From Panulirus ornatus (Eukaryota; Arthropoda; Malacostraca; Decapoda; Palinuridae), in NCBI RefSeq assembly GCF_036320965.1, contig NC_092230.1, forward strand, positions 47,722,594 through 47,786,593: DNA of 64,000 nucleotides, given 5' to 3'. The first letter of the stretch is position 1. The number at the start of each line of letters is the position of its first letter. Under the pieces are notes generated by a model. The model ran no database searches. It was not told the DNA's origin and saw nothing but the letters and a program-made list of their open reading frames with translations. Shown piece after piece: positions 6,025 through 55,305 of the stretch. Both the position numbers and the translations under genes were made by a program.

Positions 6025-6384
6025 TTTGGGTGTCAAACCCAATGAAATGAAATTGTATTACAATTCCTTTTATCTCATGGAGGCATTGAATGTTCGTGGT
6101 TGCTCTTAGTTATTGTTGTGAGTGCTCTTTTTTTTGTGATTTATGGTTTCATTGCTGTTGAGTTTCTGTATTTCTATAGTTGCAGATGATGAAATAGAAG
6201 AAGCTGATAAGGCATTGGAAGGTAAAGGAGGGCTTTACATAATTAAACTGCCAAGGGCCTATGGAACATTCGGTATCTTTGTTAATCTAAAAAGCAAAGC
6301 TTTCTGAGATTGACAAAGGATTGAAGTAGTGGCAGTAGAATTTGATTCGTTGACAGAATATGAACTTTTTGACATGTATGCAGT
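6025..6384. other. Unassigned sequence with one exon-like stretch
   Basis: Between the DNA transposon and the repeat pile. A stretch at about 6184-6306 is open (ADDEIEEADKALEGKGGLYI...), follows a TTGCAG acceptor-like site and includes GGTAAAG, which could be a donor. I do not recognise the peptide. It may be a decayed transposase or a chance open frame. Confidence 0.25.
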
Positions 6385-6475
6385 TTCCTGCATTTGCGAG
6401 ATAGCGTCAAGAACAGATGACTAAGCCTTAGAGGGAAAGAACCTCATTTGGCACCCTTTTCTTTTTTTTTCTTTC
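6385..6475 (-). mobile_element. SINE-like element fragment, old
   Basis: Holds a decayed form of the shared tail (TTTGCGAGATAGCGTCAAGA on the plus strand), then an ACAGATGACTAAGCCTTAGAGGG segment in pieces that matches the SINE-like elements at 46166-46400 read in reverse. Degenerate, partial copy. Confidence 0.5.
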
Positions 6476-6489
6476 TTTTGGAAGAGTAA

Positions 6490-7300
6490 AACAGGAGGGT
6501 GAAGGGCTTGCACGGAATAGGGGGAATTGGAATGATGTATTATTCTGGGGTTGATATGCTGTCAATGGATTGAACCAGGGCATGTGAAACATCAGGGGTA
6601 AATCATGGAAAGGTCTGTGGGGCCTGGATGTGGATGGGAGCTGTGGTTTTAGTGCATTACACATGACAGCTAGAGAGCAGAAAAGGTTGTATTAAAATGG
6701 TTTGGACATATTGAGAGAATGAGTGAGGAAAGGTTGACAAAGAGGATATATGTGTCAGAGATGGAAGGAACAAGGAGAAGCAGGAGACCGAACTGTATGT
6801 GGGAGGATGGAGTGAAAAAGATATTGAGTGATTAGGGCCTGAGCATACAGGAGGGTGAGAGGTGTGCAAGGAATGGAGTGAATTGGAATGATGTGGTATA
6901 CTGGAGTCGACGGCATGTGAAACTTCTTGGGTTAAATATGGAAAGGTCTGTGGGGCCTGGATGTGGATAGGGAGCTGTGGTTTTGGTGCATTACTCATGT
7001 CAGTTAGAGACTGGATGTGAATGAATGTGACCTTTTTTCCTGTTTTCCTGGTGCTACCTCACTGAAGCTGGGGGTAGCATTGCTGTTCCCTGTGGGGCGG
7101 GGTAATGACAGGAATGGATGAAGGCTAGTAAGTATGAATATTTACATGTGTATATATGTGTATGTCCGCATATGTGTATGTATATGTTATGTATATATGG
7201 GCATTTATGTATATATATGTGTATAAAAGTGGATGGGTCATTCTTTGTTTGTTTCCGGCACTACCTCGCTGATGCAGGAAACAGCGATTATGTATAAGAA
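6490..7300 (+). mobile_element. Old LINE-A 3' fragments, two in a row
   Basis: 6490-6665 holds the end of the LINE-A frame and the start of its 3' untranslated region. At about 6666 the sequence jumps back into the frame (LKWFGHIERMSEERLTKRIY equivalent at 6690-6750) and runs again through the terminal segment and a long 3' region to about 7300. The C-terminal motifs GHIERM, RPNCMWEDGVKKI and a terminal stop region are visible but interrupted. Divergence from the young copies is clear, so these are old insertions or one rearranged insertion. Confidence 0.7.
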
Positions 7301-7529
7301 AAAAACCATGGAAAGGTCTGTAGGGAGCTGTGGTTTCGATGCATTACACATGACAGCTAGAGATTGAGTGTGAATGAATGTGACCTTTTTGGTCCGTTTT
7401 TCTGGCGCTACCTCACTGAAGCGGGGGTTGGTAATGCTATTTTCCTGTGCAGCGAGGTAGCAACAGGGATGGATGAAGGCAAGCAAGTACAAATATGTAC
7501 ATGTGTATATATGCATATGTTTGTGTATT

Positions 7530-9330: not shown

Positions 9331-9480
9331 TGAGGTGTGTATATTTGCGTGTGTGGACATATGTATATACATGTGTATGGGGGGGGGTTGGGCCATTTCT
9401 TTCGTCTGTTTCCATGCGCTACCTCGCAAACGCGGGAGACAGCGACAAAGTATAATAAAAAAAAAAATATATATATATAT
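9328..9480 (+). mobile_element. LINE-A 3' tail only
   Basis: Short plus-strand tail with TTGCGTGTGTGGACATATGT, GCTACCTCGCAAACGCGGGA, and an A-rich end followed by a short (TA)n. The next element starts directly after. Confidence 0.8.
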
Positions 9481-12355
9481 TGAGGAAAGGAACCTGGATG
9501 TTTTGGCTCTGAGTGAAACGAAGCTCAAGGGTAAAGGGGAAGAGTGGTTTGGGAATGTCTGGGGAGTAAAGTCAGGGGTTAGTGAGAGGACAAGAGCAAG
9601 GGAAGGAGTAGCAATACTCCTGAAACAGGAGTTGTGGGAGTATGTGATAGAATGTAAGAAAGTAAATTCTCGATTAATATGGGTAAAACTGAAAGTTGAT
9701 GGAGAGAGGTGGGTGATTATTGGTGCATATGCACCTGGGCATGAGAAGAAAGATCATGAGAGGCAAGTGTTTTGGGAGCAGCTGAATGAGTGTATTAGTG
9801 GTTTTGATGCACGAGACCGGGTTATAGTGATGGGTGATTTGAATGCAAAGGTGAGTAATGTGGCAGTTGAGGGAATAATTGGTATACATGGGGTGTTCAG
9901 TGTTGTAAATGGAAATGGTGAAGAGCTTGTAGATTTATGTGCTGAAAAAGGACTGATGATTGGGAATACCTGGTTTAAAAAGCGAGATATACATAAGTAT
10001 ACTTATGTAAGTAGGAGAGATGGCCAGAGAGCGTTATTGGATTACGTGTTAATTGACAGGCGTGCAAAAGAGAGACTTTTGGATGTTAATGTGCTGAGAG
10101 GTGCAACTGGAGGGATGTCTGATCATTATCTTGTGGAGGCTAAGGTGAAGATTTGTATGGGTTTTCAGAAAAGAAGAGTGAATGTTGGGGTGAAGAGGGT
10201 GGTGAGAGTAAGTGAGCTTGGGAAGGAGACCTGTGTGAGGAAGTACCAGGAGAGACTGAGTACAGAATGGAAAAAGGTGAGAACAATGGAAGTAAGATGA
10301 GTGGGGGAGGAATGGGATGTATTTAGGGAATCAGTGATGGATTGCGCAAAAGATGCTTGTGGCATGAGAAGAGTGGGAGGTGGGTTGATTAGAAAGGGTA
10401 GTGAGTGGTGGGATGAAGAAGTAAGAGTATTAGTGAAAGAAAAGAGAGAGGCATTTGGACGATTTTTGCAGGGAAAAAATGCAATTGAGTGGGAGATGTA
10501 TAAAAGAAAGAGACAGGAGGTCAAGAGAAAGGTGCAAGAGGTGAAAAAAAGGGCAAATGAGAGTTGGGGTGAGAGAGTATCATTAAATTTTAGGGAGAAT
10601 AAAAAGATGTTCTGGAAGGAGGTAAATAAAGTGCGTAAGACAAGGGAGCAAATGGGAACTTCAGTGAAGGGCGCAAATGGGGAGGTGATAACAAGTAGTG
10701 GTGATGTGAGAAGGAGATGGAGTGAGTATTTTGAAGGTTTGTTGAATGTGTTTGATGATAGAGTGGCAGATATAGGGTGTTTTGGTCGAGGTGGTGTGCA
10801 AAGTGAGAGGGTTAGGGAAAATGATTTGGTAAACAGAGAAGAGGTAGTGAAAGCTTTGCGGAAGATGAAAGCCAGCAAGGCAGCAGGTTTGGATGGTATT
10901 GCAGTGGAATTTATTAAAAAAGGGGGTGACTGTATTGTTGACTGGTTGGTAAGGTTATTTAATGTATGTATGACTCATGGTGAGGTGCCTGAGGATTGGC
11001 GGAATGCGTGCATAGTGCCATTGTACAAAGGCAAAGGGGATAAGAGTGAGTGCTCAAATTACAGAGGTATAAGTTTGTTGAGTATTCCTGGTAAATTATA
11101 TGGGAGGGTATTGATTGAGAGGGTGAAGGCATGTACAGAGCATCAGATTGGGGAAGAGCAGTGTGGTTTCAGAAGTGGTAGAGGATGTGTGGATCAGGTG
11201 TTTGCTTTGAAGAATGTATGTGAGAAATACTTAGAAAAGCAAATGGATTTGTATGTAGCATTTATGGATCTGGAGAAGGCATATGATAGAGTTGATAGAG
11301 ATGCTCTGTGGAAGGTATTAAGAATATATGGTGTGGGAGGCAAGTTGTTAGAAGCAGTGAAAAGTTTTTATCGAGGATGTAAGGCATGTGTACGTGTAGG
11401 AAGAGAGGAAAGTGATTGGTTCTCAGTGAATGTAGGTTTGCGGCAGGGGTGTGTGATGTCTCCATGGTAGTTTAATTTGTTTATGGATGGGGTTGTTAGG
11501 GAGGTAAATGCAAGAGTTTTGGAAAGAGGGGCAAGTATGAAGTCTGTTGGGGATGAGAGAGCTTGGGAAGTGAGTCAGTTGTTGTTCGCTGATGATACAG
11601 CGCTGGTGGCTGATTCATGTGAGAAACTGCAGAAGCTGGTGACTGAGTTTGGTAAAGTGTGTGAAAGAAGAAAGTTAAGAGTAAATGTGAATAAGAGCAA
11701 GGTTATTAGGTACAGTAGGGTTGAGGGTCAAGTCAATTGGGAGGTGAGTTTGAATGGAGAAAAACTGGAGGAAGTGAAGTGTTTTAGATATCTGGGAGTG
11801 GATCTGGCAGTGGATGGAACCATGGAAGCGGAAGTGGATCATAGGGTGGGGGAGGGGGCGAAAATTCTGGGGGCCTTGAAGAATGTGTGGAAGTCGAGAA
11901 CATTATCTCGGAAAGCAAAAATGGGTATGTTTGAAGGAATAGTGGTTCCAACAATGTTGTATGGTTGCGAGGCGTGGGCTATGGATAGAGTTGTGCGCAG
12001 GAGGATGGATGTGCTGGAAATGAGATGTTTGAGGACAATGTGTGGTGTGAGGTGGTTTGATCGAGTGAGTAACGTAAGGGTAAGAGAGATGTGTGGAAAT
12101 AAAAAGAGCGTGGTTGAGAGAGCAGAAGAGGGTGTTTTGAAGTGGTTTGGGCACATGGAGAGAATGAGTGAGGAAAGATTGACCAAGAGGATATATGTGT
12201 CGGAGGTGGAGGGAACGAGGAGAAGAGGGAGACCAAATTGGAGGTGGAAAGATGGAGTGAAAAAGATTTTGAGTGATCGGGGCCTGAACATGCAGGAGGG
12301 TGAAAGGAGGGCAAGGAATAGAGTGAATTGGAGCGATGTGGTATACCGGGGTTGA
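9481..12355 (+). pseudogene. LINE-A endonuclease/reverse transcriptase, two nonsense codons
   Basis: The single frame holds, in order: APE-type endonuclease (SETK near 9508, YAPG near 9729, VMGDLNAKV near 9827, and MSDHYLVEAK near 10117); a lysine/arginine-rich linker (10400-10640); and reverse transcriptase with NYRGISLLSIPGKLYGRVLI (11059-11118), AFMDLEKAYDRVDRDALWKV (about 11258), GLRQGCVMSPW, and FADDTALVADS (about 11587). The C-terminal segment has GHMERMSEERLTKR and RPNWRWKDGVKKIL. Catalytic residues are present, but TGA at 10298-10300 and TAG at 11468-11470 (just after CVMSPW) interrupt it. Otherwise open, so inactivation looks recent. Expected product: a multidomain enzyme for target-primed reverse transcription. 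Confidence 0.9.
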
Positions 12356-12545
12356 CGTGCTGTCAGTGGATTGAATCAAGGCATGTGAAGCGTCTGGGGT
12401 AAACCATGGAAAGCTGTGTAGGTATGTATATTTGCGTGTGTGGACGTATGTATATACATGTGTATGGGGGGGGGTTGGGCCATTTCTTTCGTCTGTTTCC
12501 TTGCGCTACCTCGCAAACGCGGGAGACAGCAACAAAGTATAATAA
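9481..12545 (+). mobile_element. LINE-A, longest plus-strand copy
   Basis: About 3.06 kb. It starts inside the endonuclease domain (LDVLALSETKLKG), covers the complete reverse transcriptase and C-terminal region, and ends with the short 3' tail (12356-12545) and an A-rich then TA-rich end. The true 5' end and the first endonuclease residues are missing. No clear target duplication: both sides are TA-rich. It serves as the reference for the family together with 41125-44173. Confidence 0.9.
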
Positions 12546-12635: not shown

Positions 12636-12709
12636 TTTTCTTCACACTATTCGCGATTTCCCACGTTAGCAAGGTAGTGTTAAGAACAGAGGACTGGACT
12701 CTTGAGGGA

Positions 12710-12710
<1 letters not shown>
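12633..12710 (-). mobile_element. SINE-like element fragment
   Basis: The reverse complement reads CAGTCCTCTGTTCTTAACAC then CTACCTTGCTAACGTGGGAA, matching the 3' part of the SINE-like copy at 46166-46400. Bounded by TA tracts on both sides. Confidence 0.6.

Positions 12711-12736
<26 letters not shown>
12711..12736. repeat. (TA)n microsatellite
   Basis: About 13 TA units. Confidence 0.9.
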
Positions 12737-19510: not shown

Positions 19511-19523
19511 CTCTCTCTTTTCC

Positions 19524-19580
19524 CCTTTTAGAAAGTTAAATACAAAGAGGGGAGGGTTGCTAGCCCCCCTCTGTTTTTGT
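19524..19580 (-). mobile_element. SINE-like element fragment
   Basis: The reverse complement holds GGGGGCTAGCAACCCTCCCC, matching the GGGGGCTGGAAATCCTCCCC segment of the SINE-like copy at 46166-46400. Confidence 0.45.
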
Positions 19581-25374: not shown

Positions 25375-25490
25375 TTTCATACTTGTTCACTGTTTCCCGT
25401 GTTAGTGTGGTAGCATCAGGAACAGATGAAGAAGTGGCCTGATGTGCTCACTTTCATTTTGTAGCTTTCATGTGTAATGCATTGAGATCC
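25375..25490 (-). mobile_element. LINE-A-related tail, old
   Basis: TTGTTCACTGTTTCCCGTGT and AGTGTGGTAGCATCAGGAAC are decayed forms of the minus-strand tail. Confidence 0.55.
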
Positions 25491-25555
25491 CTGGGGACAG
25501 AGGTGAAAGAATACTTTCCCCATATTCCCTGCATGTCATATAGTAGAGCAAATTA
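25491..25555 (+). mobile_element. SINE-like element fragment
   Basis: Reads AAGAATACTTTCCCCATATT then CCCTGCATGTCATATAGTAG, which aligns with the AATACTTCCCACGTATTCCC...TGTCGTAGAAGG core of the copy at 46166-46400. Confidence 0.5.
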
Positions 25556-26399: not shown

Positions 26400-26560
26400 A
26401 TTCCCGGCACCCCACACGACCAAAGGAAACAGCATCACTACCCCCAGCTCCAGCAAGGTAGCGCCAAGAAAACACAAAAAAGGCTGTAATCATTCACATT
26501 CAGTCTCTAGCTGTCATGTGTAATGCACCAAAACCACAGATCCCTATCCATTTCTTGCAT
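26400..26560 (-). mobile_element. LINE-A-related 3' tail, old
   Basis: CAGCAAGGTAGCGCCAAGAA and TCTCTAGCTGTCATGTGTAA mark a minus-strand long-form tail. Confidence 0.6.
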
Positions 26561-26692
26561 TAGCAACATAGCGTTTAAGAACAGATGACAGAGCCTTAGA
26601 AGGAAGACTCCTTCTCTCTTCCTTTTAGTTACCTTTTATGACTCGCAGGAATACATGGGAAGTACTCTTTCTCCTGTCCCAGGGATATATAT
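26561..26692 (-). mobile_element. SINE-like element, decayed
   Basis: The reverse complement reads TATCCCTGGGACAGGAGAAA, GAGTACTTCCCATGTATTCC, then a decayed GAGTCATAAAAGGTAACTAA core, and ends with a form of the LINE-like tail (TGCTAATGCAAG). Nearly the full length of the copy at 46166-46400, with an internal deletion. Confidence 0.65.
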
Positions 26693-41123: not shown

Positions 41124-44100
41124 CTTTTTTTTTTTGCTGTCTCCCGCGTTTGCGAGGTAGCGCAAGGAAACAGACGAAAGAAATGGCCCAACCCACCCCC
41201 ATACACAATGTATACACACACACATCCACACACGCAAATATACATACCTACACAGCTTTCCATGGTTCACCCCAGATGCTTCACATGCCCTGATTCAATC
41301 CACTGACAGCACGTCAACCCCGGTATACCACATCGATCCAATTCACTCTATTCCTTGCCCTCCTTTCACCCTCCTGCATGTTCAGGCCCCGATCACACAA
41401 AATCTTTTTCACTCCATCTTTCCACCTCCAATTTGGTCTCCCACTTCTCCTCGTTCCCTCCACCTCCGACACATATATCCTCTTGGTCAATCTTTCCTCA
41501 CTCATTCTCTCCATGTGCCCAAACCATTTCAAAACACCCTCTTCTGCTCTCTCAACCACGCTCTTTTTATTTCCACACATCTCTCTTACCCTTACGTTAC
41601 TTACTCGATCAAACCACCTCACACCACACATTGTCCTCAAACATCTCATTTCCAGCACATCTATCCTCCTGCGCACAACTCTATCCATAGCAAACGCCTT
41701 GCAACCATACAACATTGTTGGAACCACTATTCCTTCAAACATACCCATTTTTGCTTTCCGAGATAATGTTCTCGACTTCCACACATTCTTCAAGGCTCCC
41801 AGGATTTTCGCCCCCTCCCCCACCCTATGATCCACTTCCGCTTCCATGGTTCCATCCGCTGCCAGATCCACTCCCAGATATCTAAAACACTTTACTTCCT
41901 CCAGTTTTTCTCCATTCAAACTTACCTCCCAATTGACTTGACCCTCAACCCTACTGTACCTAATAACCTTGCTCTTATTCACATTTACTCTTAACTTTCT
42001 TCTTTCACACACTTTACCAAACTCAGTCACCAGTTTCTGCAGTTTCTCACATGAATCAGCCACCAGCGCTGTATCATCAGCGAACAACAACTGACTCACT
42101 TCCCAAGCTCTCTCATCCCCAACAGACTTCATACTTGCCCCTCTTTCCAAAACTCTTGCATTTACCTCCCTAACAACCCCATCCATAAACAAATTAAACA
42201 ACCATGGAGACATCACACACCCCTGCCGCAAACCTACATTCACTGAGAACCAATCACTTTCCTCTCTTCCTACACGTACACATGCCTTACATCCTCGATA
42301 AAAACTTTTCACTGCTTCTAACAACTTGCCTCCCACACCATATATTCTTAATACCTTCCACAGAGCATCTCTATCAACTCTATCATATGCCTTCTCCAGA
42401 TCCATAAATGCTACATACAAATCCATTTGCTTTTCTAAGTATTTCTCACATACATTCTTCAAAGCAAACACCTGATCCACACATCCTCTACCACTTCTGA
42501 AACCACACTGCTCTTCCCCAATCTGTTGCTCTGTACATGACTTCACCCTCTCAATCAATACCCTCCCATATAATTTACCAGGAATACTCAACAAACTTAT
42601 ACCTCTGTAATTTGAGCACTCACTCTTATCCCCTTTGCCTTTGTACAATGGCACTATGCACGCATTCCGCCAATCCTCAGGCACCTCACCATGAGTCATC
42701 CATACATTAAATAACCTTACCAACCAGTCAATAATACAGTCACCCCCTTTTTTAATAAATTCCACTGCAATACCATCCAAACCTGCTGCCTTGCCGGCTT
42801 TCATCTTCTGCAAAGCTTTTACTACCTCTTCTCTGTTTACCAAATCATTTTCCCTAACCCTCTCCCTTTGCACACCACCTCGACCAAAACACCCTATATC
42901 TGCCACTCTATCATCAAACACATTCAACAAACCTTCAAAATACTCACTCCATCTCCTTCTCACATCACCACTACTTGTTATCACCTCCCCATTTGCGCCC
43001 TTCACTGAAGTTCCCATTTGCCCCCTTGTCTTACGCACTTTATTTACCTCCTTCCAGAACATCTTTTTATTCTCCCTAAAATTTAATGATACTCTCTCAC
43101 CCCAACTCTCATTTGCCCTCTTTTTCACCTCTTGCACCTTTCTCTTGACCTCCTGTCTCTTTCTTTTATACATCTCCCACTCAATTGCATTTTTTCCCTG
43201 CAAAAATCGTCCAAATGCCTCTCTCTTCTCTTTCACTAATACTCTTACTTCTTCATCCCACCACTCACTACCCTTTCTAATCAACCCACCTCCCACTCTT
43301 CTCATGCCACAAGCATCTTTTGCGCAATCCATCACTGATTCCCTAAATACATCCCATTCCTCCCCCACTCCCCTTACTTCCATTGTTCTCACCTTTTTCC
43401 ATTCTGTACTCAGTCTCTCCTGTACTTCCTCACACACGTCTCCTTCCCAAGCTCACTTACTCTCACCACCCTCTTCACCCCAACATTCACTCTTCTTTTC
43501 TGAAAACCCATACAAATCTTCACCTTAGCCTCCACAAGATAATGATCAGACATCCCTCCAGTTGCACCTCTCAGCACATTAACATCCAAAAGTCTCTCTT
43601 TCGCTCGCCTGTCAATTAACACGTAATCCAATAACGCTCTCTGTCCATCTCTCCTTCTTACATACGTATACTTATGTATATCTCGCTTTTTAAACCAGGT
43701 ATTCCCAATCACCAGTCCTTTTTCAGCACATAAATCTACAAGCTCTTCACCATTTCCATTTACAACACTGAACACCCCATGTATACCAATTATTCCCTCA
43801 ACTGCCACATTACTCACCTTTGCATTCAAATCACCCATCACTATAACCCGGTCTCGTGCATCAAAACCACTAACACACTCATTCAGCTGCTCCCAAAACA
43901 CTTGCCTCTCATGATCTTTCTTCTTATGCCCAGGTGCATATGCACCAATAATCACCCATCTCTCTCCATCAACTTTCAGTTTTACCCATATTAATCGAAA
44001 TTTACTTTCTTACATTCTATCACATACTCCCACAACTCCTGTTTCAGGAGCACTGCTACTCCTTCCCTTTCTCTTGTCCTCTCACTAACCCCTGACTTTA

Positions 44101-44173
44101 CTCCCAAGACATTCCCAAACCACTCTTCCCCTTTACCCTTGAGCTTCGTTTCACTCAGAGCCAAAACATCCAT
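41109..44173 (-). mobile_element. LINE-A, nearly full-length minus-strand copy
   Basis: About 3.06 kb from the A-tail (T-rich 41109-41135) through the short tail, whole C-terminal region and reverse transcriptase, to a start inside the endonuclease (MDVLALSETKLKGKGEEWFG at 44173). It is the best-preserved copy in the window. Its 5' end abuts a short TA tract and another LINE-A tail, so no target duplication is visible. Its interior near 41693 is one partner of the crossover that made the 7.2-kb tandem duplication. Confidence 0.92.
41314..44173 (-). pseudogene. LINE-A endonuclease/reverse transcriptase, two one-base deletions
   Basis: Three overlapping frames make one gene. 44173-43991: endonuclease start (SETK). 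43955-43410: endonuclease core (YAPGHKKKDHE, VMGDLNAKV, GQRALLDYVLID, MSDHYLVEAK). 43437-41314: 707 codons with linker, RT and C-terminus. Compared with 9481-12355, single bases are missing near 43998 (AATTTCGATT against AATTCTCGATT) and near 43425 (GTACAGGAG against GTACCAGGAG). In the 707-codon part, MDLEKAYD lies near residues 345-352, GLRQGCVMSPW near 403-412, FADD at 452-455, and GHMERM near 630. The RT catalytic aspartates (about 346, 454 and 455) are intact. Very recent decay. Confidence 0.92.
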
Positions 44174-44195
44174 ATATATATATATATATAATAAT
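44172..44195. repeat. Short (TA)n tract
   Basis: Separates the 5' end of one LINE-A from the tail of the next. Duplicated at 51392-51415. Confidence 0.8.
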
Positions 44196-44437
44196 TTTTA
44201 TATTTATTTATTTTGCTTTGTCACTGTCTCCCGCGTTTGCGAGGTAGCACAAGGAAACAGACAAAAGAACTGGCCCAACCCACCCCCATGCACAATCTAT
44301 ACACACACATGTCCACACACGCAAATATACATACCTATACATCTCAATGTATACATATATATACATACACAGACACATACATATATACCCGTGCACACAA
44401 TTCACATTGTCTGCCCCCATTCACTCCCATCACCACC
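44196..44437 (-). mobile_element. LINE-A 3' tail only
   Basis: Minus-strand tail (TTGCTTTGTCACTGTCTCCC, then GTGTCTGT-type region in reverse) ending at CCCATCACCACC. It is directly fused to a plus-strand LINE-A body, which has its own tail at 45715-46150, so the body lies between inverted tails. Duplicated at 51416-51657. Confidence 0.85.
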
Positions 44438-46160
44438 TGAGAGTTGGGGTGAGAGAGTATCATTGATTGAGAGGGTGAGGGCATGTACAGAGCATCAGAT
44501 TGGGGAAGAGCAGTGTGGTTTCAGAAGTGGTAGAGGATGTGTGGATCAGGTGTTTGCTTTGAAGAATGTATGTGAGAAATACTTAGAAAAGCAAATGGAT
44601 TTGTATGTAGCATTTATGGATCTGGAGAAGGCATATGATAGAGTTGATAGAGATGCTCTGTGGAAGGTATTAAGAATATATGGTGTGGGAGGCAAGTTGT
44701 TAGAAGCTGTGAAAAGTTTTTATCGAGGATGTAAGGCATGTGTACGTGTAGGAAGAGAGGAAAGTGATTGGTTCTCAGTGAATGTAGGTTTGCAGCAGGG
44801 GTGTGTGATGTCTCCATGGTTGTTTAATTTGTTTATGGATGGGGTTGTTAGGGAGGTGAATGCAAGAGTTTTGGAAAGAGGGGCAAGTATGCAGTCTGTT
44901 GTGGATGAGAGAGCTTGGGAAGTGAGTCAGTTGTTGTTCGCTGATGATACAGCGCTGGTGGCTGATTCATGTGAGAAACTGCAGAATCTGGTGACTGAGT
45001 TTGGTAAAGTGTGTGAAAGAAGAAAGTTAAGAGTAAATGTGAATAAGAGCAAGGTTATTAGGTACAGTAGGGTCGAGGGTCAAGTCAATTGGGAGGTAAG
45101 TTTGAATGGAGAAAAACTGGAGGAAGTAAAGTGTTTTAGATATCTAGGAGTGGATCTGGCAGCGGATGGAACCATGGAAGCGGAAGTGAATCATAGGGTG
45201 GGGGAGGGGGCGAAAATCCTGGGAGCCTTGAAGAATGTGTGGAAGACGAGAACATTATCTCAGAAAGCAAAAATGGGTATGTTTGAAGGAATAGTGGTTC
45301 CAACAATGTTGTATGGTTGCGAGGCGTTTGCTATGGATAGAGTTGTGCGCAGGAGGGTGGATGTGCTGGAAATGAGATGTTTGAGGACAATGTGTGGTGT
45401 GAGGTGGTTTGATCGAGTGAGTAACGTAAGGGTAAGAGAGATGTGTGGAAATAAAAAGAGCATGGTTGAGAGAGCGGAAGAGGGTGTTTTGAAATGGTTT
45501 GGGCACATGGAGAGAATGAGTGAGGAAAGATTGACCAAGAGGATATATGTGTCGGAGGTGGAGGGAACGAGGAGAAGAGGGAGACCAAATTGGAGGTGGA
45601 AAGATGGAGTGAAAAAGATTTTGTGTGATCGGGGCCTGAACATGCAGGAGGGTGAAAGGAGGGCAAGGAATAGAGTGAATTGGATCGATGTGGTATACCG
45701 GGGTTGATGTGCTGTCAGTGGATTGAATCAGGGCATGTGAAGCGTCTGGGGTAAACCATGGAAAGTTGTGTGGGGCCTGGATGTGGAAAGGGAGCTGTGG
45801 TTTCGGGCATTATTGCGTGGCAGTTAGAGACTGAGTGTGAACGAATGTGGCCTTTGTTGTCTTTTCCTAGTGCTACCTCGCACACATGAGGGGGGAGGGG
45901 GGATGGTATTCCATGTGTGGCAATGGGAGTGAATGGGGGCAGACAGTGTGAATTGTGTGCATGGGTATATATGTATGTGTCTGTGTATGTATATATATGT
46001 GTACATTGAGATGTATAGGTATGTATATTTGCGTGTGTGGACGTGTGTGTGTATACATTGTGTATGGGGGTGGGTTGGGTCAGTTCTTTCGTCTGTTTCC
46101 TTGCGCTACCTCGCAAACGCGGGAGACAGCGACAAAGCAAAATAAATATATAGATATATA
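44438..46160 (+). mobile_element. LINE-A with internal deletion, long-tail form
   Basis: Starts with ESWGERVSL, which in the full copy is in the linker (10559-10586), then jumps to IERVRACTEHQIGEEQCGFR (11113 in the full copy), a deletion of about 527 bases at the shared word ATT. After that the frame is open through RT motifs (MDLEKAYD, GLQQGCVMSPW, FADDTALVADS near 44937) and the C-terminus to the stop at 45705-45707. GLQQG replaces GLRQG, a subfamily marker. The long 3' region ends with GCTACCTCGCAAACGCGGGA (46105-46124) and an AT-rich tail. Confidence 0.9.
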
Positions 46161-46165
46161 TACTA

Positions 46166-46400
46166 TTTATCCCTGGGGATAGGGGATTAAGAATACTTCC
46201 CACGTATTCCCTGCGTGTCGTAGAAGGCGACTAAAAGGGGAGGGAGCGGGGGCTGGAAATCCTCCCCTCTCGTTTTTTTTTTTAATTTTCCAAAAGAAGG
46301 AACAGAGAATTGGGCCAGGTGAGGGTATTCCCTCAAAGGCCCAGTCCTCTGTTCTTAATGCTACCTCGCTAACGCGGGAAATGGCAAATAGTTTAAAAGA
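46166..46400 (+). mobile_element. SINE-like element sharing the LINE-A 3' tail
   Basis: Non-coding, about 235 bases: CCCTGGGGATAGGGGATTAA, a core CCTGCGTGTCGTAGAAGGCG followed by ACTAAAAGGGG (the words GTCG and CGAC can pair as a small stem), GGGGGCTGGAAATCCTCCCC, a T run, then GGCCCAGTCCTCTGTTCTTA. It ends with GCTACCTCGCTAACGCGGGA (46360-46379), 19 of 20 bases identical to the LINE-A tail (46105-46124), and an A-rich end. The core resembles a motif widespread in metazoan SINEs, possibly the Nin-DC domain; that is from memory. No clear pol III A and B boxes, so the 5' head may be missing. Confidence 0.7.
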
Positions 46401-46417
46401 AAAAGAAAGAATATATA

Positions 46418-46419
46418 CT

Positions 46420-46469
<50 letters not shown>

Positions 46470-46470
46470 A
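46418..46470. repeat. (ATT)n microsatellite
   Basis: About 17 ATT units with one T insertion. Probably the tail of the minus-strand element that follows. Duplicated at 53639-53691. Confidence 0.9.
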
Positions 46471-47062
46471 CTTGATTGCCATTTTCCATGTCAGTGAGGT
46501 AGCACCAGGAAACAGACGAAGAATAGCCCATCCACTCATACACACATATATGTACATAAACACCCATACATATACATATCAACATATACACATATACAAA
46601 CACATACACAGACATATACATATACACACTTGTGCATATTCATACTTGTTTACCCTCATCCATTCCTGGTGCCACACCACCCCATTTCACAGGAAACAGC
46701 ATCACTACCCCCCGCTTCAGCAAGTTAGTGCCAGGAAAACAGACAAAAAAGACCACAGTTTCTCACATTCAGTCTCTAGCTGTCATGTGTAATGCACTGA
46801 AACCGCAGATCCCTATCTATATCCAGGCTCCACAGACTTTTCCATAGTTTACCCCAGACATTTCACATGCCCTGGTTCAGTCCATTGACAGCACCTTGAC
46901 CCTGGCATACCACATCGTTCCACTTCACTCTATCACTTGCATGCTTCTCACCCTCTAGTATGTTCAGGCCCTGATCACTCAAAATATTTTTTACTCCATC
47001 CTTCCACCTCCAGTTTGGTCTCCTGCTTCTCCTTGTTCCCTCCATCTCAGACATGTATATCC
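46471..47062 (-). mobile_element. LINE-A-related 3' fragment, moderately old
   Basis: Minus strand: tail TTGCCATTTTCCATGTCAGT, long-form 3' region, and the last 60 codons (47054-46863: GTRRSRRPNWRWKDGVKNIL). Truncated at 47062. Confidence 0.75.
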
Positions 47063-47345
47063 TTTAGGTGTTATATATGACAAGGAGAGATTGTATGTTT
47101 GTGAACAGAATGCTAGCAGTACCAGGGTCGGAGGAGTGCAACTTGACAAACACTGGAGTGCTGGCTCATTATGTAGCCATCACCAACCCTCCCGTTACCC
47201 AGGCGGGTAATACTGGTAACATACCTCCCTGGTTGGTGGCTGCCTGCCAACTACTACCTATCCCTCTGCCCATTCTGCCACTGAGTTAACTTTCTTGTAT
47301 GTTGAAGCAACTGCTTTCCACTGCTATTGTTCTATTCATAGCTAC
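47063..47345. repeat. Dispersed repeat, related to 35820-35890
   Basis: Contains GGTAATACTGGTAACATACC and TCCCTGGTTGGTGGCTGCCT, matching the second half of the repeat at 35641-35890. A 73-codon frame here has no features I recognise. Confidence 0.55.
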
Positions 47346-47638
47346 ATGGCAACTGTGGTATGTTTATTGTAAAATATATAGAAAATAGAAAGAGGTTAGA
47401 ATTAAGTGATATGGTAGGAAGGGATTTGTGTGATGGAAGGATGGCTCTTCATTTACTGTTTTACTAGCAGATCAAGTCAGTACCCAAGATTTGTCTAGAA
47501 ATATGTTTAAGGGAAGATAGAATATGTGCATTTTTCTCTTTTTTATGACAACAGTACATTTGTTGATCATTCTGTGGTGTTTTCATTGCTAAAGTTTACA
47601 AACATTTTGTTTCATATCTACAGGTAGTTATAAGATGA
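47346..47638. other. No recognisable feature
   Basis: AT-rich spacer before the transposase fragment. Confidence 0.4.
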
Positions 47639-47996
47639 CTGGCAAAAAAGCTGTGAAAGCTTAGATGTAAGAAAAAGCCATAAATCATTTTCTGTAGATG
47701 TGAAATTGGAATTGGTAAGGCAGTTTCAAAAGGGTGAGAAACTTTCCCAGATTTCAATTGTTAGAACTCTTTACCCTCAGTGGAACAATGCGCAATGTGA
47801 AAGACGAAGTAAAAGCCAGTACTCAGGCTTCTACACCATTAAGTGCTACAGAAGTAGCTTGCAATCAAGATGTAATTGAAGACATGCAAAAGCAGTCATG
47901 TATGTGGGTCAAATCAAATTCAACTTAAAGTGCCAATAAACACCATGAGCTTTCTTGTGTCAAAAGTATTAATATCATTTCTGTTTTATGCCTTTT
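47639..47996 (+). pseudogene. Tigger/jerky-type transposase fragment
   Basis: Frame pieces read MTGKKAVKA, then KSFSVDVKLELVRQFQKGEK, LSQIS, a frameshift, then SGTMRNVKDEVKASTQASTP, IEDMQKQSCMWVKS and QLKVPINTMSF. This is the N-terminal CENP-B-type helix-turn-helix and the start of the second DNA-binding domain of a Tigger-type transposase (family words: GTMRNI, IEEMEKLLSVWIED). It differs from the one at 5280-5820. Stops after KAVKA and at two other points; ends where a LINE-A tail has inserted (47997). Duplicated at 54860-55217. Confidence 0.7.
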
Positions 47997-48084
47997 TTTT
48001 TTTTATTATACTGTATCGCTGTTTCCCGCATGAGCGAGGTGGCCAGGAAATAGATGAAGAATGGCCCATCCACTCACACATATT
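47997..48084 (-). mobile_element. LINE-A-related tail, interrupted
   Basis: T-tract, then CGCTGTTTCCCGCATGAGCG and GAATGGCCCATCCACTCACA. The next LINE-A inserted into it at about 48081. Confidence 0.65.
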
Positions 48085-51000
48085 TATTTATTTATTTTGC
48101 TTTGTCGCTCTCTCCCGCGTTTGCGAGGTAGCGTAAGGAAACAGACGAAAGAAAGGCCCAACCCACCCACATACACATGTATATACATACATGTCCACAT
48201 ATGGCACATATACATAACTATACATCTCAATGTATACTTATATGTACACACAGACGTATACATATATACCCATGTACATAATTCATACTGTCTGCCTTTA
48301 TTCATTCCCATCGCCACCCCGCCACACATGGAATAACAACACCCTCCCCCTCATGTGTGCGAGGTAGCGCAAGGAAAAGACAACAAAGGCCCCATTCGTT
48401 CACACTCATTCTCTAGCTGTCATGTAATAATGCACCGAAACCACAGCTCCCTTTCCACATCCAGGCCCCACAGAGCTTTCCATGGTTTACCCCAGACGCT
48501 TCACATGCCCTGGTTCAATCCATTGACAGCATGTCGACCCCAGTACACCATATCATTCCAATTCACTCTATTCCTTGCACGCCTTCCACCCTCCTGCATG
48601 TTCAGGTCCCGATCACTCAAAATCTTTTTCACTCCATCTTTCCACCTCCAATTTGGTCTCCCACTTCTCCTCGTTCCCTCCACCTCTGACACATATATCG
48701 TCTTGGTCAATATTTCCTCACTCATTCTCTCCATGTGACCAAACCATTTCAAAACACCCTCGTCTGCTCTCTCAACCACACTCTTTCTATTACCACACAC
48801 CTCTCGTACCCTACTATTACTTACTCGATCAAACCACCTCACACCACACATTGTCCTCAAACATCTCATTTCCAGCACATCCACCTCCTGTGCACAACTC
48901 TATCCATAGCCAACGCCTTGCAACCATACAACATTGTTGGAACCACTATTCCTTCAAACATACCCATTTTTGCTTTCCGAGATAATGTTCTCGACTTCCA
49001 CACATTCTTCAAGGCTCCCAGGATTTTCGCCCCCTCCCCCACCCTATGATCCACTTCCGCTTCCATGGTTCCATCCGCTGCCAGATCCACTCCCAGATAT
49101 CTAAAACACTTTACTTCCTCCAGTTTTTCTCCATTCAAACTTACCTCCCAATTGACTTGACCCTCAACCCTACTGTACCTAATAACCTTGCTCTTATTCA
49201 CATTTACTCTTAACTTTCTTCTTTCACACACTTTACCAAACTCAGTCACCAGCTTTCTGCAGTTTCTCACATGAATCAGCCACCAGCGCTGTATCATCAG
49301 CGAACAACAACTGACTCACTTCCCAAGCTCTCTCATCCCCAACAGACTTCATACTTGCCCCTCTTTCCAAAACTCTTGCATTTACCTCCCTAACAACCCC
49401 ATCCATAAACAAATTAAACAACCATGGAGACATCACACACCCCTGCCGCAAACCTACATTCACTGAGAACCAATCACTTTCCTCTCTTCCTACACGTACA
49501 CATGCCTTACATCCTCGATAAAAACTTTTCACTGCTTCTAACAACTTGCCTCCCACACCATATATTCTTAATACCTTCCACAGAGCATCTCTATCAACTC
49601 TATCATATGCCTTCTCCAGATCCATAAATGCTACATACAAATCCATTTGCTTTTCTAAGTATTTCTCACATACATTCTTCAAAGCAAACACCTGATCCAC
49701 ACATCCTCTACCACTTCTGAAACCACACTGCTCTTCCCCAATCTGTTGCTCTGTACATGACTTCACCCTCTCAATCAATACCCTCCCATATAATTTACCA
49801 GGAATACTCAACAAACTTATACCTCTGTAATTTGAGCACTCACTCTTATCCCCTTTGCCTTTGTACAATGGCACTATGCACGCATTCCGCCAATCCTCAG
49901 GCACCTCACCATGAGTCATCCATACATTAAATAACCTTACCAACCAGTCAATAATACAGTCACCCCCTTTTTTAATAAATTCCACTGCAATACCATCCAA
50001 ACCTGCTGCCTTGCCGGCTTTCATCTTCTGCAAAGCTTTTACTACCTCTTCTCTGTTTACCAAATCATTTTCCCTAACCCTCTCCCTTTGCACACCACCT
50101 CGACCAAAACACCCTATATCTGCCACTCTATCATCAAACACATTCAACAAACCTTCAAAATACTCACTCCATCTCCTTCTCACATCACCACTACTTGTTA
50201 TCACCTCCCCATTTGCGCCCTTCACTGAAGTTCCCATTTGCCCCCTTGTCTTACGCACTTTATTTACCTCCTTCCAGAACATCTTTTTATTCTCCCTAAA
50301 ATTTAATGATACTCTCTCACCCCAACTCTCATTTGCCCTCTTTTTCACCTCTTGCACCTTTCTCTTGACCTCCTGTCTCTTTCTTTTATACATCTCCCAC
50401 TCAATTGCATTTTTTCCCTGCAAAAATCGTCCAAATGCCTCTCTCTTCTCTTTCACTAATACTCTTACTTCTTCATCCCACCACTCACTACCCTTTCTAA
50501 TCAACCCACCTCCCACTCTTCTCATGCCACAAGCATCTTTTGCGCAATCCATCACTGATTCCCTAAATACATCCCATTCCTCCCCCACTCCCCTTACTTC
50601 CATTGTTCTCACCTTTTTCCATTCTGTACTCAGTCTCTCCTGTACTTCCTCACACACGTCTCCTTCCCAAGCTCACTTACTCTCACCACCCTCTTCACCC
50701 CAACATTCACTCTTCTTTTCTGAAAACCCATACAAATCTTCACCTTAGCCTCCACAAGATAATGATCAGACATCCCTCCAGTTGCACCTCTCAGCACATT
50801 AACATCCAAAAGTCTCTCTTTCGCTCGCCTGTCAATTAACACGTAATCCAATAACGCTCTCTGTCCATCTCTCCTTCTTACATACGTATACTTATGTATA
50901 TCTCGCTTTTTAAACCAGGTATTCCCAATCACCAGTCCTTTTTCAGCACATAAATCTACAAGCTCTTCACCATTTCCATTTACAACACTGAACACCCCAT

Positions 51001-51393
51001 GTATACCAATTATTCCCTCAACTGCCACATTACTCACCTTTGCATTCAAATCACCCATCACTATAACCCGGTCTCGTGCATCAAAACCACTAACACACTC
51101 ATTCAGCTGCTCCCAAAACACTTGCCTCTCATGATCTTTCTTCTTATGCCCAGGTGCATATGCACCAATAATCACCCATCTCTCTCCATCAACTTTCAGT
51201 TTTACCCATATTAATCGAAATTTACTTTCTTACATTCTATCACATACTCCCACAACTCCTGTTTCAGGAGCACTGCTACTCCTTCCCTTTCTCTTGTCCT
51301 CTCACTAACCCCTGACTTTACTCCCAAGACATTCCCAAACCACTCTTCCCCTTTACCCTTGAGCTTCGTTTCACTCAGAGCCAAAACATCCAT
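48085..51393 (-). mobile_element. Hybrid LINE-A at the duplication junction
   Basis: The 3' part (48085-48911) is identical in its private variants to the LINE-A at 55306-56133 (for example TCGTCTTGGTCAATATTTCC and ACACACCTCTCGTACCCTAC). The 5' part (48912-51393) matches the LINE-A at 41693-44173. At the switch the three copies read AGCAAACG (41690), AGCCCACG (56130) and AGCCAACG (48909), placing the exchange between 48911 and 48912. Long 3' tail on the left, endonuclease start (MDVLALSETK) on the right. Confidence 0.92.
48501..51393 (-). pseudogene. Hybrid LINE-A endonuclease/reverse transcriptase
   Basis: Same domain order as 41314-44173 and the same two one-base deletions in the endonuclease part. 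Frames: 51393-51211, 51175-50630 and 50657-49242 (linker and RT with intact MDLEKAYD and FADD). An extra base near 49252 (AGCTTTCTGCAG against AGCTTCTGCAG) ends that frame just after FADDTALVADSCEKLQK. The frame at 49297-48866 continues to a base loss near 48890, and 48884-48501 gives the C-terminus. Confidence 0.9.
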
Positions 51394-51415
51394 ATATATA
51401 TATATATATAATAAT

Positions 51416-51657
51416 TTTTATATTTATTTATTTTGCTTTGTCACTGTCTCCCGCGTTTGCGAGGTAGCACAAGGAAACAGACAAAAGAACTGGCCCAACC
51501 CACCCCCATGCACAATCTATACACACACATGTCCACACACGCAAATATACATACCTATACATCTCAATGTATACATATATATACATACACAGACACATAC
51601 ATATATACCCGTGCACACAATTCACATTGTCTGCCCCCATTCACTCCCATCACCACC
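51416..51657 (-). mobile_element. LINE-A 3' tail only (duplicate)
   Basis: Second copy of 44196-44437. Confidence 0.85.
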
Positions 51658-53380
51658 TGAGAGTTGGGGTGAGAGAGTATCATTGATTGAGAGGGTGAGG
51701 GCATGTACAGAGCATCAGATTGGGGAAGAGCAGTGTGGTTTCAGAAGTGGTAGAGGATGTGTGGATCAGGTGTTTGCTTTGAAGAATGTATGTGAGAAAT
51801 ACTTAGAAAAGCAAATGGATTTGTATGTAGCATTTATGGATCTGGAGAAGGCATATGATAGAGTTGATAGAGATGCTCTGTGGAAGGTATTAAGAATATA
51901 TGGTGTGGGAGGCAAGTTGTTAGAAGCTGTGAAAAGTTTTTATCGAGGATGTAAGGCATGTGTACGTGTAGGAAGAGAGGAAAGTGATTGGTTCTCAGTG
52001 AATGTAGGTTTGCAGCAGGGGTGTGTGATGTCTCCATGGTTGTTTAATTTGTTTATGGATGGGGTTGTTAGGGAGGTGAATGCAAGAGTTTTGGAAAGAG
52101 GGGCAAGTATGCAGTCTGTTGTGGATGAGAGAGCTTGGGAAGTGAGTCAGTTGTTGTTCGCTGATGATACAGCGCTGGTGGCTGATTCATGTGAGAAACT
52201 GCAGAATCTGGTGACTGAGTTTGGTAAAGTGTGTGAAAGAAGAAAGTTAAGAGTAAATGTGAATAAGAGCAAGGTTATTAGGTACAGTAGGGTCGAGGGT
52301 CAAGTCAATTGGGAGGTAAGTTTGAATGGAGAAAAACTGGAGGAAGTAAAGTGTTTTAGATATCTAGGAGTGGATCTGGCAGCGGATGGAACCATGGAGG
52401 CGGAAGTGAATCATAGGGTGGGGGAGGGGGCGAAAATCCTGGGAGCCTTGAAGAATGTGTGGAAGACGAGAACATTATCTCAGAAAGCAAAAATGGGTAT
52501 GTTTGAAGGAATAGTGGTTCCAACAATGTTGTATGGTTGCGAGGCGTGGGCTATGGATAGAGTTGTGCGCAGGAGGGTGGATGTGTTGGAAATGAGATGT
52601 TTGAGGACAATGTGTGGTGTGAGGTGGTTTGATCGAGTGAGTAACGTAAGGGTAAGAGAGATGTGTGGAAATAAAAAGAGCATGGTTGAGAGAGCGGAAG
52701 AGGGTGTTTTGAAATGGTTTGGGCACATGGAGAGAATGAGTGAGGAAAGATTGACCAAGAGGATATATGTGTCGGAGGTGGAGGGAACGAGGAGAAGAGG
52801 GAGACCAAATTGGAGGTGGAAAGATGGAGTGAAAAAGATTTTGTGTGATCGGGGCCTGAACATGCAGGAGGGTGAAAGGAGGGCAAGGAATAGAGTGAAT
52901 TGGATCGATGTGGTATACCGGGGGTTGATGTGCTGTCAGTGGATTGAATCAGGGCATGTGAAGCGTCTGGGGTAAACCATGGAAAGTTGTGTGGGGCCTG
53001 GATGTGGAAAGGGAGCTGTGGTTTCGGGCATTATTGCGTGGCAGTTAGAGACTGAGTGTGAACGAATGTGGCCTTTGTTGTCTTTTCCTAGTGCTACCTC
53101 GCACACATGAGGGGGGAGGGGGGATGGTATTCCATGTGTGGCAATGGGAGTGAATGGGGGCAGACAGTGTGAATTGTGTGCATGGGTATATATGTATGTG
53201 TCTGTGTATGTATATATATGTGTACATTGAGATGTATAGGTATGTATATTTGCGTGTGTGGACGTGTGTGTGTATACATTGTGTATGGGGGTGGGTTGGG
53301 TCAGTTCTTTCGTCTGTTTCCTTGCGCTACCTCGCAAACGCGGGAGACAGCGACAAAGCAAAATAAATATATAGATATAT
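51658..53380 (+). mobile_element. LINE-A with internal deletion (duplicate)
   Basis: Second copy of 44438-46160. Differences: EAWAMD where unit 1 has EAFAMD, and an added G near 52921 that changes the natural end and adds LMCCQWIESGHVKRLG before a stop at 52973-52975. RT frame open from the start through FADDTALVADS (about 52157) to the end. The tail is identical. Confidence 0.9.
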
Positions 53381-53386
53381 ATACTA

Positions 53387-53621
53387 TTTATCCCTGGGGA
53401 TAGGGGATTAAGAATACTTCCCACGTATTCCCTGCGTGTCGTAGAAGGCGACTAAAAGGGGAGGGAGCGGGGGCTGGAAATCCTCCCCTCTCGTTTTTTT
53501 TTTTAATTTTCCAAAAGAAGGAACAGAGAATTGGGCCAGGTGAGGGTATTCCCTCAAAGGCCCAGTCCTCTGTTCTTAATGCTACCTCGCTAACGCGGGA
53601 AATGGCAAATAGTTTAAAAGA
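53387..53621 (+). mobile_element. SINE-like element (duplicate)
   Basis: Second copy of 46166-46400. The shared tail GCTACCTCGCTAACGCGGGA is at 53581-53600. Confidence 0.7.
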
Positions 53622-53638
53622 AAAAGAAAGAATATATA

Positions 53639-53640
53639 CT

Positions 53641-53690
<50 letters not shown>

Positions 53691-54283
53691 ACTTGATTGC
53701 CATTTTCCATGTCAGTGAGGTAGCACCAGGAAACAGACGAAGAATAGCCCATCCACTCATACACACATATATGTACATAAACACCCATACATATACATAT
53801 CAACATATACACATATACAAACACATACACAGACATATACATATACACACTTGTGCATATTCATACTTGTTTACCCTCATCCATTCCTGGTGCCACACCA
53901 CCCCATTTCACAGGAAACAGCATCACTACCCCCCGCTTCAGCAAGTTAGTGCCAGGAAAACAGACAAAAAAGACCACAGTTTCTCACATTCAGTCTCTAG
54001 CTGTCATGTGTAATGCACTGAAACCGCAGATCCCTATCTATATCCAGGCTCCACAGACTTTTCCATAGTTTACCCCAGACATTTCACATGCCCTGGTTCA
54101 GTCCATTGACAGCACCTTGACCCTGGCATACCACATCGTTCCACTTCACTCTATCACTTGCATGCTTCTCACCCTCTAGTATGTTCAGGCCCTGATCACT
54201 CAAAATATTTTTTACTCCATCCTTCCACCTCCAGTTTGGTCTCCTGCTTCTCCTTGTTCCCTCCATCTCAGACATGTATATCC
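53639..54283 (-). mobile_element. LINE-A-related 3' fragment with (ATT)n (duplicate)
   Basis: Second copy of 46418-47062. Confidence 0.75.
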
Positions 54284-54566
54284 TTTAGGTGTTATATATG
54301 ACAAGGAGAGATTGTATGTTTGTGAACAGAATGCTAGCAGTACCAGGGTCGGAGGAGTGCAACTTGACAAACACTGGAGTGCTGGCTCATTATGTAGCCA
54401 TCACCAACCCTCCCGTTACCCAGGCGGGTAATACTGGTAACATACCTCCCTGGTTGGTGGCTGCCTGCCAACTACTACCTATCCCTCTGCCCATTCTGCC
54501 ACTGAGTTAACTTTCTTGTATGTTGAAGCAACTGCTTTCCACTGCTATTGTTCTATTCATAGCTAC
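54284..54566. repeat. Dispersed repeat (duplicate)
   Basis: Second copy of 47063-47345. Confidence 0.55.
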
Positions 54567-54859
54567 ATGGCAACTGTGGTATGTTTATTGTAAAATATAT
54601 AGAAAATAGAAAGAGGTTAGAATTAAGTGATATGGTAGGAAGGGATTTGTGTGATGGAAGGATGGCTCTTCATTTACTGTTTTACTAGCAGATCAAGTCA
54701 GTACCCAAGATTTGTCTAGAAATATGTTTAAGGGAAGATAGAATATGTGCATTTTTCTCTTTTTTATGACAACAGTACATTTGTTGATCATTCTGTGGTG
54801 TTTTCATTGCTAAAGTTTACAAACATTTTGTTTCATATCTACAGGTAGTTATAAGATGA

Positions 54860-55217
54860 CTGGCAAAAAAGCTGTGAAAGCTTAGATGTAAGAAAAAGCC
54901 ATAAATCATTTTCTGTAGATGTGAAATTGGAATTGGTAAGGCAGTTTCAAAAGGGTGAGAAACTTTCCCAGATTTCAATTGTTAGAACTCTTTACCCTCA
55001 GTGGAACAATGCGCAGTGTGAAAGACGAAGTAAAAGCCAGTACTCAGGCTTCTACACCATTAAGTGCTACAGAAGTAGCTTGCAATCAAGATGTAATTGA
55101 AGACATGCAAAAGCAGTCATGTATGTGGGTCAAATCAAATTCAACTTAAAGTGCCAATAAACACCATGAGCTTTCTTGTGTCAAAAGTATTAATATCATT
55201 TCTGTTTTATGCCTTTT
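54860..55217 (+). pseudogene. Tigger/jerky-type transposase fragment (duplicate)
   Basis: Second copy of 47639-47996. One visible change: GCGCAGTGTG against GCGCAATGTG (MRSVKDE against MRNVKDE). Confidence 0.7.
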
Positions 55218-55305
55218 TTTTTTTTATTATACTGGATCGCTGTTTCCCGCATGAGCGAGGTGGCCAGGAAATAGATGAAGAATGGCTCATCCACTCACAC
55301 ATATT
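55218..55305 (-). mobile_element. LINE-A-related tail, interrupted (duplicate)
   Basis: Second copy of 47997-48084, with CTGGATCGC in place of CTGTATCGC. Confidence 0.65.

Follow-up and report, generated by a model that had tools for sequence, protein, structure and literature searches.

The locus at position 46168 of a 64,000-nucleotide stretch of the Panulirus ornatus genome (hereafter the window) raises the question of what a short non-coding repeat is when it ends in the tail of a LINE. The preliminary description of the window took the repeat for a conventional SINE, with a head of its own, that had acquired its tail from the family called LINE-A. Our results suggest instead, with a probability that we put at about 0.8, that the element descends from the LINE-A lineage through an internal deletion and is a non-autonomous element, which would be transcribed from its LINE-derived 5′ end and copied by the LINE reverse transcriptase acting in trans.

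The element and related sequences in the window

The full-length copy of the window (Table 1) is 96% identical to a consensus of 26 copies. The element is 234-243 nt long and every sense frame contains a stop; one sense frame is open for about 77 codons past its stop, and one antisense frame is open throughout, for which a search found no protein relatives. The fold of the whole element has a z-score of -5.38 against 200 shuffles. The copy was inserted into an AT-rich tract behind the LINE-A tail at 46105, and its own tail carries the 20-mer with a T loop, GCTACCTCGCTAACGCGGGA, as an exact match at 46360. The LINE-A copy to which that tail belongs shows 98% and 97% identity to the reference copies of two blocks of 300 bp (families D2 and D5). 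Because the window copy landed behind that LINE-A tail, the element was evidently mobile after a fairly young LINE-A insertion.

The preliminary description listed six further pieces of the same element, and its assignments at 6385, 12633 and 26561 stand. The piece at 19524 is LINE 5′ UTR, and the one at 25491 cannot be assigned to either source, on the scores given in Table 1. The piece at 53387 is not an independent insertion, because the copy there is 100% identical to the one at 46168 and lies within a direct duplication at 99.4% identity; we therefore rejected 53389 as a second copy. The duplication pairs 41247-48000 with 48467-55221 at an offset of about 7,220 bp and is at least 6.76 kb long, a lower bound, as the query stopped at 48000. 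It is either a recent segmental duplication or an effect of the assembly.

Our map of the LINE was pieced together from overlapping copies, and no examined locus runs unbroken from 5′ UTR to tail. Endonuclease, reverse transcriptase and tail lie in line at locus L040 (6127-9038), as in the window copy at 9480. Locus L047 was rejected as a complete LINE because endonuclease residues 128-275 occur twice in it, which marks it as two joined copies, and L052 extends beyond the end of the stretch examined. An RTE-type LINE carries an APE-type endonuclease and a reverse transcriptase and lacks RNase H. Pfam scans of three LINE-A frames detected Exo_endo_phos and RVT_1 and no RNase H, although one listed fish relative is named ribonuclease H. 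Of 7,997 candidates scored in the search with the LINE protein, 828 were relatives, and five of the 120 listed have a source name.

Table 1. Positions of the element, its parts and related sequences in the window
Feature	Position	Strand	Basis or remark
Full-length SINE-like element, 243 bp	46168..46410	+	Edges set by the 12-bp duplication
Left target-site duplication ATATATACTATT	46156..46167	.	Exact 12-bp repeat at the element flanks
Right target-site duplication ATATATACTATT	46411..46422	.	Exact 12-bp repeat
Element head, homologous to LINE 5′ UTR and LINE ORF start	46168..46344 (boundary approximate)	+	Alignments to L052, L047, L018 and L005
Sense-strand run of 11 T, mid-element Pol III terminator	46273..46283	+	Sequence
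Long body hairpin	46298..46357	+	Fold of -39 kcal/mol; very stable
3′ tail common to LINE tails, then A-rich end	46345..46410	+	Scores 30-34 against shuffle maxima of 14-20
Tail hairpin: inner stem CUCGC/GCGGG, UAAC loop, outer stem UGCUA/UGGCA	46359..46386	+	Fold
A-loop LINE-A tail GCTACCTCGCAAACGCGGGA, just 5′ of the element	46105..46124	+	Exact 20-mer
LINE-A copy with endonuclease, RT and A-loop tail in line, 5′ end cut off	9480..12524	+	Pfam Exo_endo_phos and RVT_1; start by blast; tail at 12505
Open LINE-A reverse transcriptase frame of 712 aa, used as search query	41314..43452	-	RVT_1, E 9.3e-39
Same insertion, repeated inside a recent duplication	53389..53631	+	100% identity over 245 bp
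5′-truncated element copy, tail present, flanked on either side by (TA)n	12636..12713	-	
Old 5′-truncated element copy with tail, A loop reading AAAT	6384..6491	-	
Old element copy, head and tail, internal deletion	26548..26687	-	
Head fragment, element or LINE 5′ UTR indistinguishable	25487..25540	+	Scores 38 against 36
LINE 5′ UTR fragment, not the short element	19514..19572	-	Score 44 to LINE against 34 to element

Abundance of the family

Two sets of loci are used below together with the window. The sample comprises twenty 10-kb stretches from 12 contigs, placed at round coordinates blind to their content and including 5,651 N. The 30 exact-core loci are the first 30 exact matches on contig C1, within its first 2.3 Mb, and represent young copies from one region.

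Pattern counts over the P. ornatus genome (2,650,149,939 bases in 1,348 contigs) confirm that the element is a real family. The 40-mer spanning the junction of body and tail occurs, at up to three mismatches, at 61,840 + 62,107 = 123,947 places, and its reversed control at 0. The core 35-mer was counted at 54,365 + 54,753 = 109,118 places, again with 0 for the reversed control, a count that may include some LINE heads, which by eye differ at three to four positions only. Such counts overlook diverged copies of the element. Taken at 234 nt each, the 123,947 junctions would add up to about 29 Mb (1.1% of the genome), a figure that truncated copies reduce, and the family fills about 1% of the 2.65-Gb genome. 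The P. ornatus genome paper gives 353,960 bp of SINEs, or 0.01%, and 40.30% of LINEs (PMC11193758), and for P. homarus a SINE content of 0.02% has been reported. Because the family is LINE-derived, the published annotation may have classed it as LINE. The junction of LINE 5′ UTR and ORF, counted with a 47-nt pattern, was found at 28,150 places genome-wide. Some copies of the element on contig C1 stand in a tandem-like order at distances of about 307-330 bp (4260285, 4260607 and 4260937; 610984 and 611291).

No earlier description of the element was found in the papers searched, with literal sequence strings included in the search; SINEBase, Repbase and Dfam lay outside this comparison. A viral contig collection scanned with the element core, the LINE protein and the tail contained no relative, and three matches (L001-L003) were discarded, as by eye they share nothing further with the element.

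The 3′ tail and its loop

The similarity of the tails, described at first from matching 20-mers, reaches well past these and covers about 60 nt. The last 60 or so nucleotides of the element align with all four LINE tail classes beyond what shuffles give, with scores of 30 for the young A-loop class, 34 for the older T-loop class, 33 for C and 30 for D, against maxima of 14, 15, 20 and 15, in the same order, in 2,000 shuffles per class. The classes were assigned by hand in the window (18 young A-loop members, 6 older T-loop, 4 C and 3 D, with 4 of the element). Because these scores do not discriminate between the classes, LINE-D was rejected as the sole true partner. The preliminary description had itself raised the possibility that the tail was present only where a LINE-A tail happened to lie beside another repeat. 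Chance and mere adjacency of this kind are rejected by the tail scores, by the 12-bp target-site duplication that the window copy has of its own and by the occurrence of the body-tail junction at 123,947 places.

The loop of the tail hairpin mostly differs between the element and the abundant LINE-A: its first base is T in all 54 element loops and A in 40 of 57 LINE-A loops, in a count that allowed up to 4 substitutions per side and included the 30 chosen loci, mostly young copies. A looser count in the sample and window only gave nine element tails, eight of which begin with T (TAAC 4, TATC 3, TAAA 1), the other being ACAT. The element has its tail in common with LINE-A, as proposed; by the loop, the A-loop LINE-A is not the closest partner. 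Exact T-loop LINE tails occur at 12,163 places genome-wide. Contrary to a T-loop pairing, the old copy at 6384-6491 has an A loop (AAAT), in a tail so diverged that the stricter count misses it, and 964 places genome-wide have an exact A-loop tail of the element. We regard a T-loop lineage of LINE-A as the likelier partner, compared with the abundant A-loop LINE-A, because both ends of the element resemble the more diverged LINE variants, the 3′ end through its T-loop tail and the 5′ end through the GGCTGGA and AGAAAG motifs of L047.

Pairing in the tail hairpin was followed across 39 distinct tails, in which 81.5% of cells pair, against 24-45% when the partners are slid; shuffles matched the observed value in 117 and 132 of 500, and the hairpin thus shows no covariation above the shuffled level. 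These 39 are the aligned ones among 45 distinct tails out of 69 found, six having been dropped because by eye they were shifted or degenerate (L042 9969, L045 123, L045 3243, L051 5848, and 18750 and 55561 in the window).

Three further observations concern the tails. The loop variant UAUC recurs in separate copies of the element (L043 9298, L045 2726 and 4250, L019 and L031) and may mark a subfamily. The 3′ UTRs of LINE-A carry a second, degenerate tail motif, seen in the window near 45872 and at 48340-48371, with similar ones at 7407, 7053 and 32183; it lies about 230 bp 5′ of the terminal tail in both cases measured. At locus L033, near 1500-1650, an element head continues into an older LINE-A T-loop tail, and a recombinant or a template switch is possible there.

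The head matches the 5′ end of the LINE

Matches to the element head that lack the element tail were found at two loci of the sample, L047 and L052, and both continue into the LINE endonuclease frame. Loci L005 and L018 contain the same LINE 5′ UTR in more diverged form, and in all four (L005, L018, L047 and L052) the endonuclease follows the 5′ UTR that resembles the head. The first base of the LINE in L052 is the first base of the element (TATCCCTGGGGATAGGGG). Over about 145 nt the element consensus shares 82% of its positions with L052 and 80% with L047. The head alignment to L052 scores 90, where none of 1,000 shuffles exceeds 19. The 5′ UTR of L047 retains AGAAAG and GGCTGGA, as the element does.

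A modest homology extends into the next 45 or so nucleotides, the start of the LINE ORF. There the scores are 15-16, reached by 2, 3 and 2 of 2,000 shuffles for L052, L047 and L018 respectively, the score of 16 for L052 comparing with a shuffle mean of 8.8 (sd 1.6). In L052 an open frame that starts MGNRRRSHAGSAHPPRRLRVGCLNVCGC has its first codons in these nucleotides; the start codon of the LINE is uncertain because L047 lacks that ATG. The separate head expected of a SINE is thus not what we find: consensus positions 1 to about 175 are LINE 5′ UTR and ORF start, the LINE's own 5′ end, and both ends of the element are therefore probably LINE-derived.

The 5′ end of the element is constant, with TATCCC in 27 of the 30 exact-core copies. 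Copies in L025 and L026 end at the same point (GGGCAGA) and are followed there by (TA)n, which may reflect a common break or mark a small subfamily.

Transcription signals

The 234-nt consensus contains no exact Pol III A or B box, the A box being present at one mismatch and the B box at two, and 29 of the 30 exact-core copies have a run of at least 7 T on the sense strand in mid-element, the exception being the recombinant L033. A full-length Pol III transcript is unlikely because of the lack of an exact box together with this T-run, and the boxes that the preliminary description would have expected in a SINE head are not there in proper form. A head derived from tRNA, 5S, 7SL or a known ribozyme was ruled out by the ARAGORN and Rfam scans. 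ARAGORN reported 0 tRNA genes in the window, and nothing there attained the gathering score of any Rfam family. Permissive Rfam searches gave 18 matches for the element (E up to 10), the best at E 0.02 to a bacterial sRNA family, and 8 for the 5′ end of the LINE in L052, the best at E 0.029, all of them below gathering score; none of either set was to tRNA, 5S, 7SL or a ribozyme. As far as its sequence can be read, the element has neither the small-RNA head nor the Pol III A and B boxes of a SINE in the strict sense; it resembles SINEs in being short, non-coding, dispersed and flanked by target-site duplications.

Insertion sites

Exact-core copies of the element adjoin (TA)n tracts far more often than random windows contain them. 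A (TA)5 or longer is present in the 5′ flank of 28 of the 30 exact-core loci and after the 3′ end in all 26 that could be scored, four loci without a recognisable 3′ end being left out, against 1.8-2.7% of random windows. For LINE tails, (TA)n lies downstream in 20 of 38 (sample and window, with duplicated pairs included). Counted in one phase and at up to two mismatches, the 5′ junction of (TA)n and element occurs at 30,186 places genome-wide.

A target-site duplication outside pure (TA)n was recognised in two of ten copies: that of the window copy is 12 bp long, and that of the copy at 4322 in L045 is 10 bp. Four of the remaining copies lie in pure (TA)n, where a duplication is indistinguishable from the tract, and four are unclear (0, 6, 6 and 7 bp). 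A control with mismatched flanks gave a mean of 7.3 against 14.1 and does not discriminate, because (TA)n matches (TA)n.

Origin of the element

The marks of retrotransposition in this family are the 12-bp and 10-bp duplications, the A-rich end and the 5′-truncated copies that keep their 3′ ends. Together with homology of both ends to the LINE, the first base in common with one LINE copy, the copy number and the (TA)n flanks, they are the observations on which derivation by internal deletion is built. The middle of the LINE would have been removed, so that about 175 nt of the 5′ end (5′ UTR and ORF start) became joined to about 60 nt of the 3′ end. The retained 5′ end probably supplies the predicted promoter of the LINE, which would make each full-length copy transcribable, and transcription from it is the simplest reading. 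The retained tail would let the LINE reverse transcriptase take the RNA of the element in trans, and insertion would proceed by target-primed reverse transcription, with (TA)n tracts as the preferred sites. We infer the promoter activity, the recognition by the LINE enzyme and the direction of derivation.

The opposite direction would have the head begin as an independent SINE or small-RNA gene, which a LINE later captured as its 5′ UTR, while the tail passed from LINE to SINE. In favour of this account, there are about four short elements for every LINE 5′ end (123,947 and 28,150 places, with patterns of 40 and 47 nt), and a similar core, GTCGTA..GGCGACTAA, may occur in molluscan and other SINEs (MetaSINEs). 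Capture would not, however, give homology that reaches into the coding start of the LINE, as the alignments at three loci do, and for that reason it is disfavoured; the head also has no match to tRNA, 5S or 7SL, the Pol III boxes are not proper ones and a T-run lies within the element. We consider it improbable.

A spread chiefly at the DNA level, through recombination or amplification between the (TA)n tracts at the flanks and not through retrotransposition, would fit the (TA)n that borders most exact-core copies on both sides, the spacing of some listed copies on C1 at about 235-330 bp and the common end point of L025 and L026 beside (TA)n. Duplications outside pure (TA)n, at 46156/46411 and in L045, speak against it, as do the A-rich 3′ ends, the 5′-truncated copies that retain the 3′ end and the dispersal of the listed copies along C1, and we judge it very unlikely. 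A conventional Pol III SINE with a borrowed LINE tail, as first proposed, would account for the tail in common with the LINE and for the constant TATCCC end, but is hardly tenable with a head that is the LINE 5′ end, with imperfect A and B boxes and with the T-run.

Comparison with known systems

By its build, the element, as a probable internal deletion of a LINE, belongs with the short elements that retain both LINE ends, and it would function as a stringent LINE's partner. As in RIME and NARTc, its 5′ end and its 3′ end are each homologous to a LINE end. The closest analogue is found in the trypanosomatid ingi/RIME and L1Tc/NARTc pairs and the SIDERs, with the Pr77 hallmark at the 5′ end, in which LINE and SINE-like members are described as being transcribed via the common Pr77 end (PMC8190864). 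Hosts and sequence are unrelated to those of the lobster element, and Pr77 is reported as a tested RNA polymerase II promoter and ribozyme (PMC8190864), whereas the lobster promoter is predicted and no Rfam ribozyme was matched.

In stringent pairs such as eel UnaL2/UnaSINE1 the shared 3′ tail ends in a stem-loop, as is predicted for the lobster tail, and the cognate LINE protein recognises it strictly. Recognition of the 3′ stem-loop by a LINE protein is established for zebrafish L2 LINEs (PMC4176376). An arthropod SINE and LINE with a common 3′ tail are known from Plutella, PxSE5 and PxLINE1, but the PxSE5 head is described as derived from 5S RNA (PMC8010984) and the lobster element is without such a head. 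RTE-type LINEs linked to simple repeats (SSR) are already in print for penaeid shrimp, and the portion of that account cited here describes no short LINE-derived element (PMC7878876). The head of UnaSINE1 is reportedly of separate origin, while that of the lobster element is LINE-derived. In the vertebrate Bov-A units, both ends of the short element come from an RTE-type LINE, Bov-B. MetaSINEs, a class also named in bivalve genomes, have a 66-bp central Meta domain, and their heads and tails appear to differ from those of the lobster element. The core GTCGTAGAAGGCGACTAA may be common to our element and the MetaSINEs (Nishihara and others 2016).

We also considered whether the conserved head is the metazoan-wide Meta domain itself, in which case a domain thought specific to SINEs would really be the 5′ promoter region of a LINE; this is a speculative idea and rather doubtful. 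If true, the domain would have been kept in short elements since it allows transcription without Pol III, and insertion into (TA)n may place a TATA-like sequence directly 5′ of each new copy.

The family described here makes up about 1% of a genome whose annotation puts all SINEs at 0.01%, and among animals it is apparently an example of a short element with both LINE ends retained. With a sequence of about 240 nt, its transcription and its recognition by the enzyme can be tested separately. In zebrafish L2 LINEs the LINE protein recognises the stem and, specifically, the loop of the 3′ tail (PMC4176376), and because of this the difference between T and A loops in the lobster is a testable prediction. 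The mostly T loop of the element, set against the mostly A loop of the abundant LINE-A, offers a test of whether a LINE alters its tail to escape a parasite. The strong link of the element to (TA)n also bears on the richness of some decapod genomes in simple repeats.
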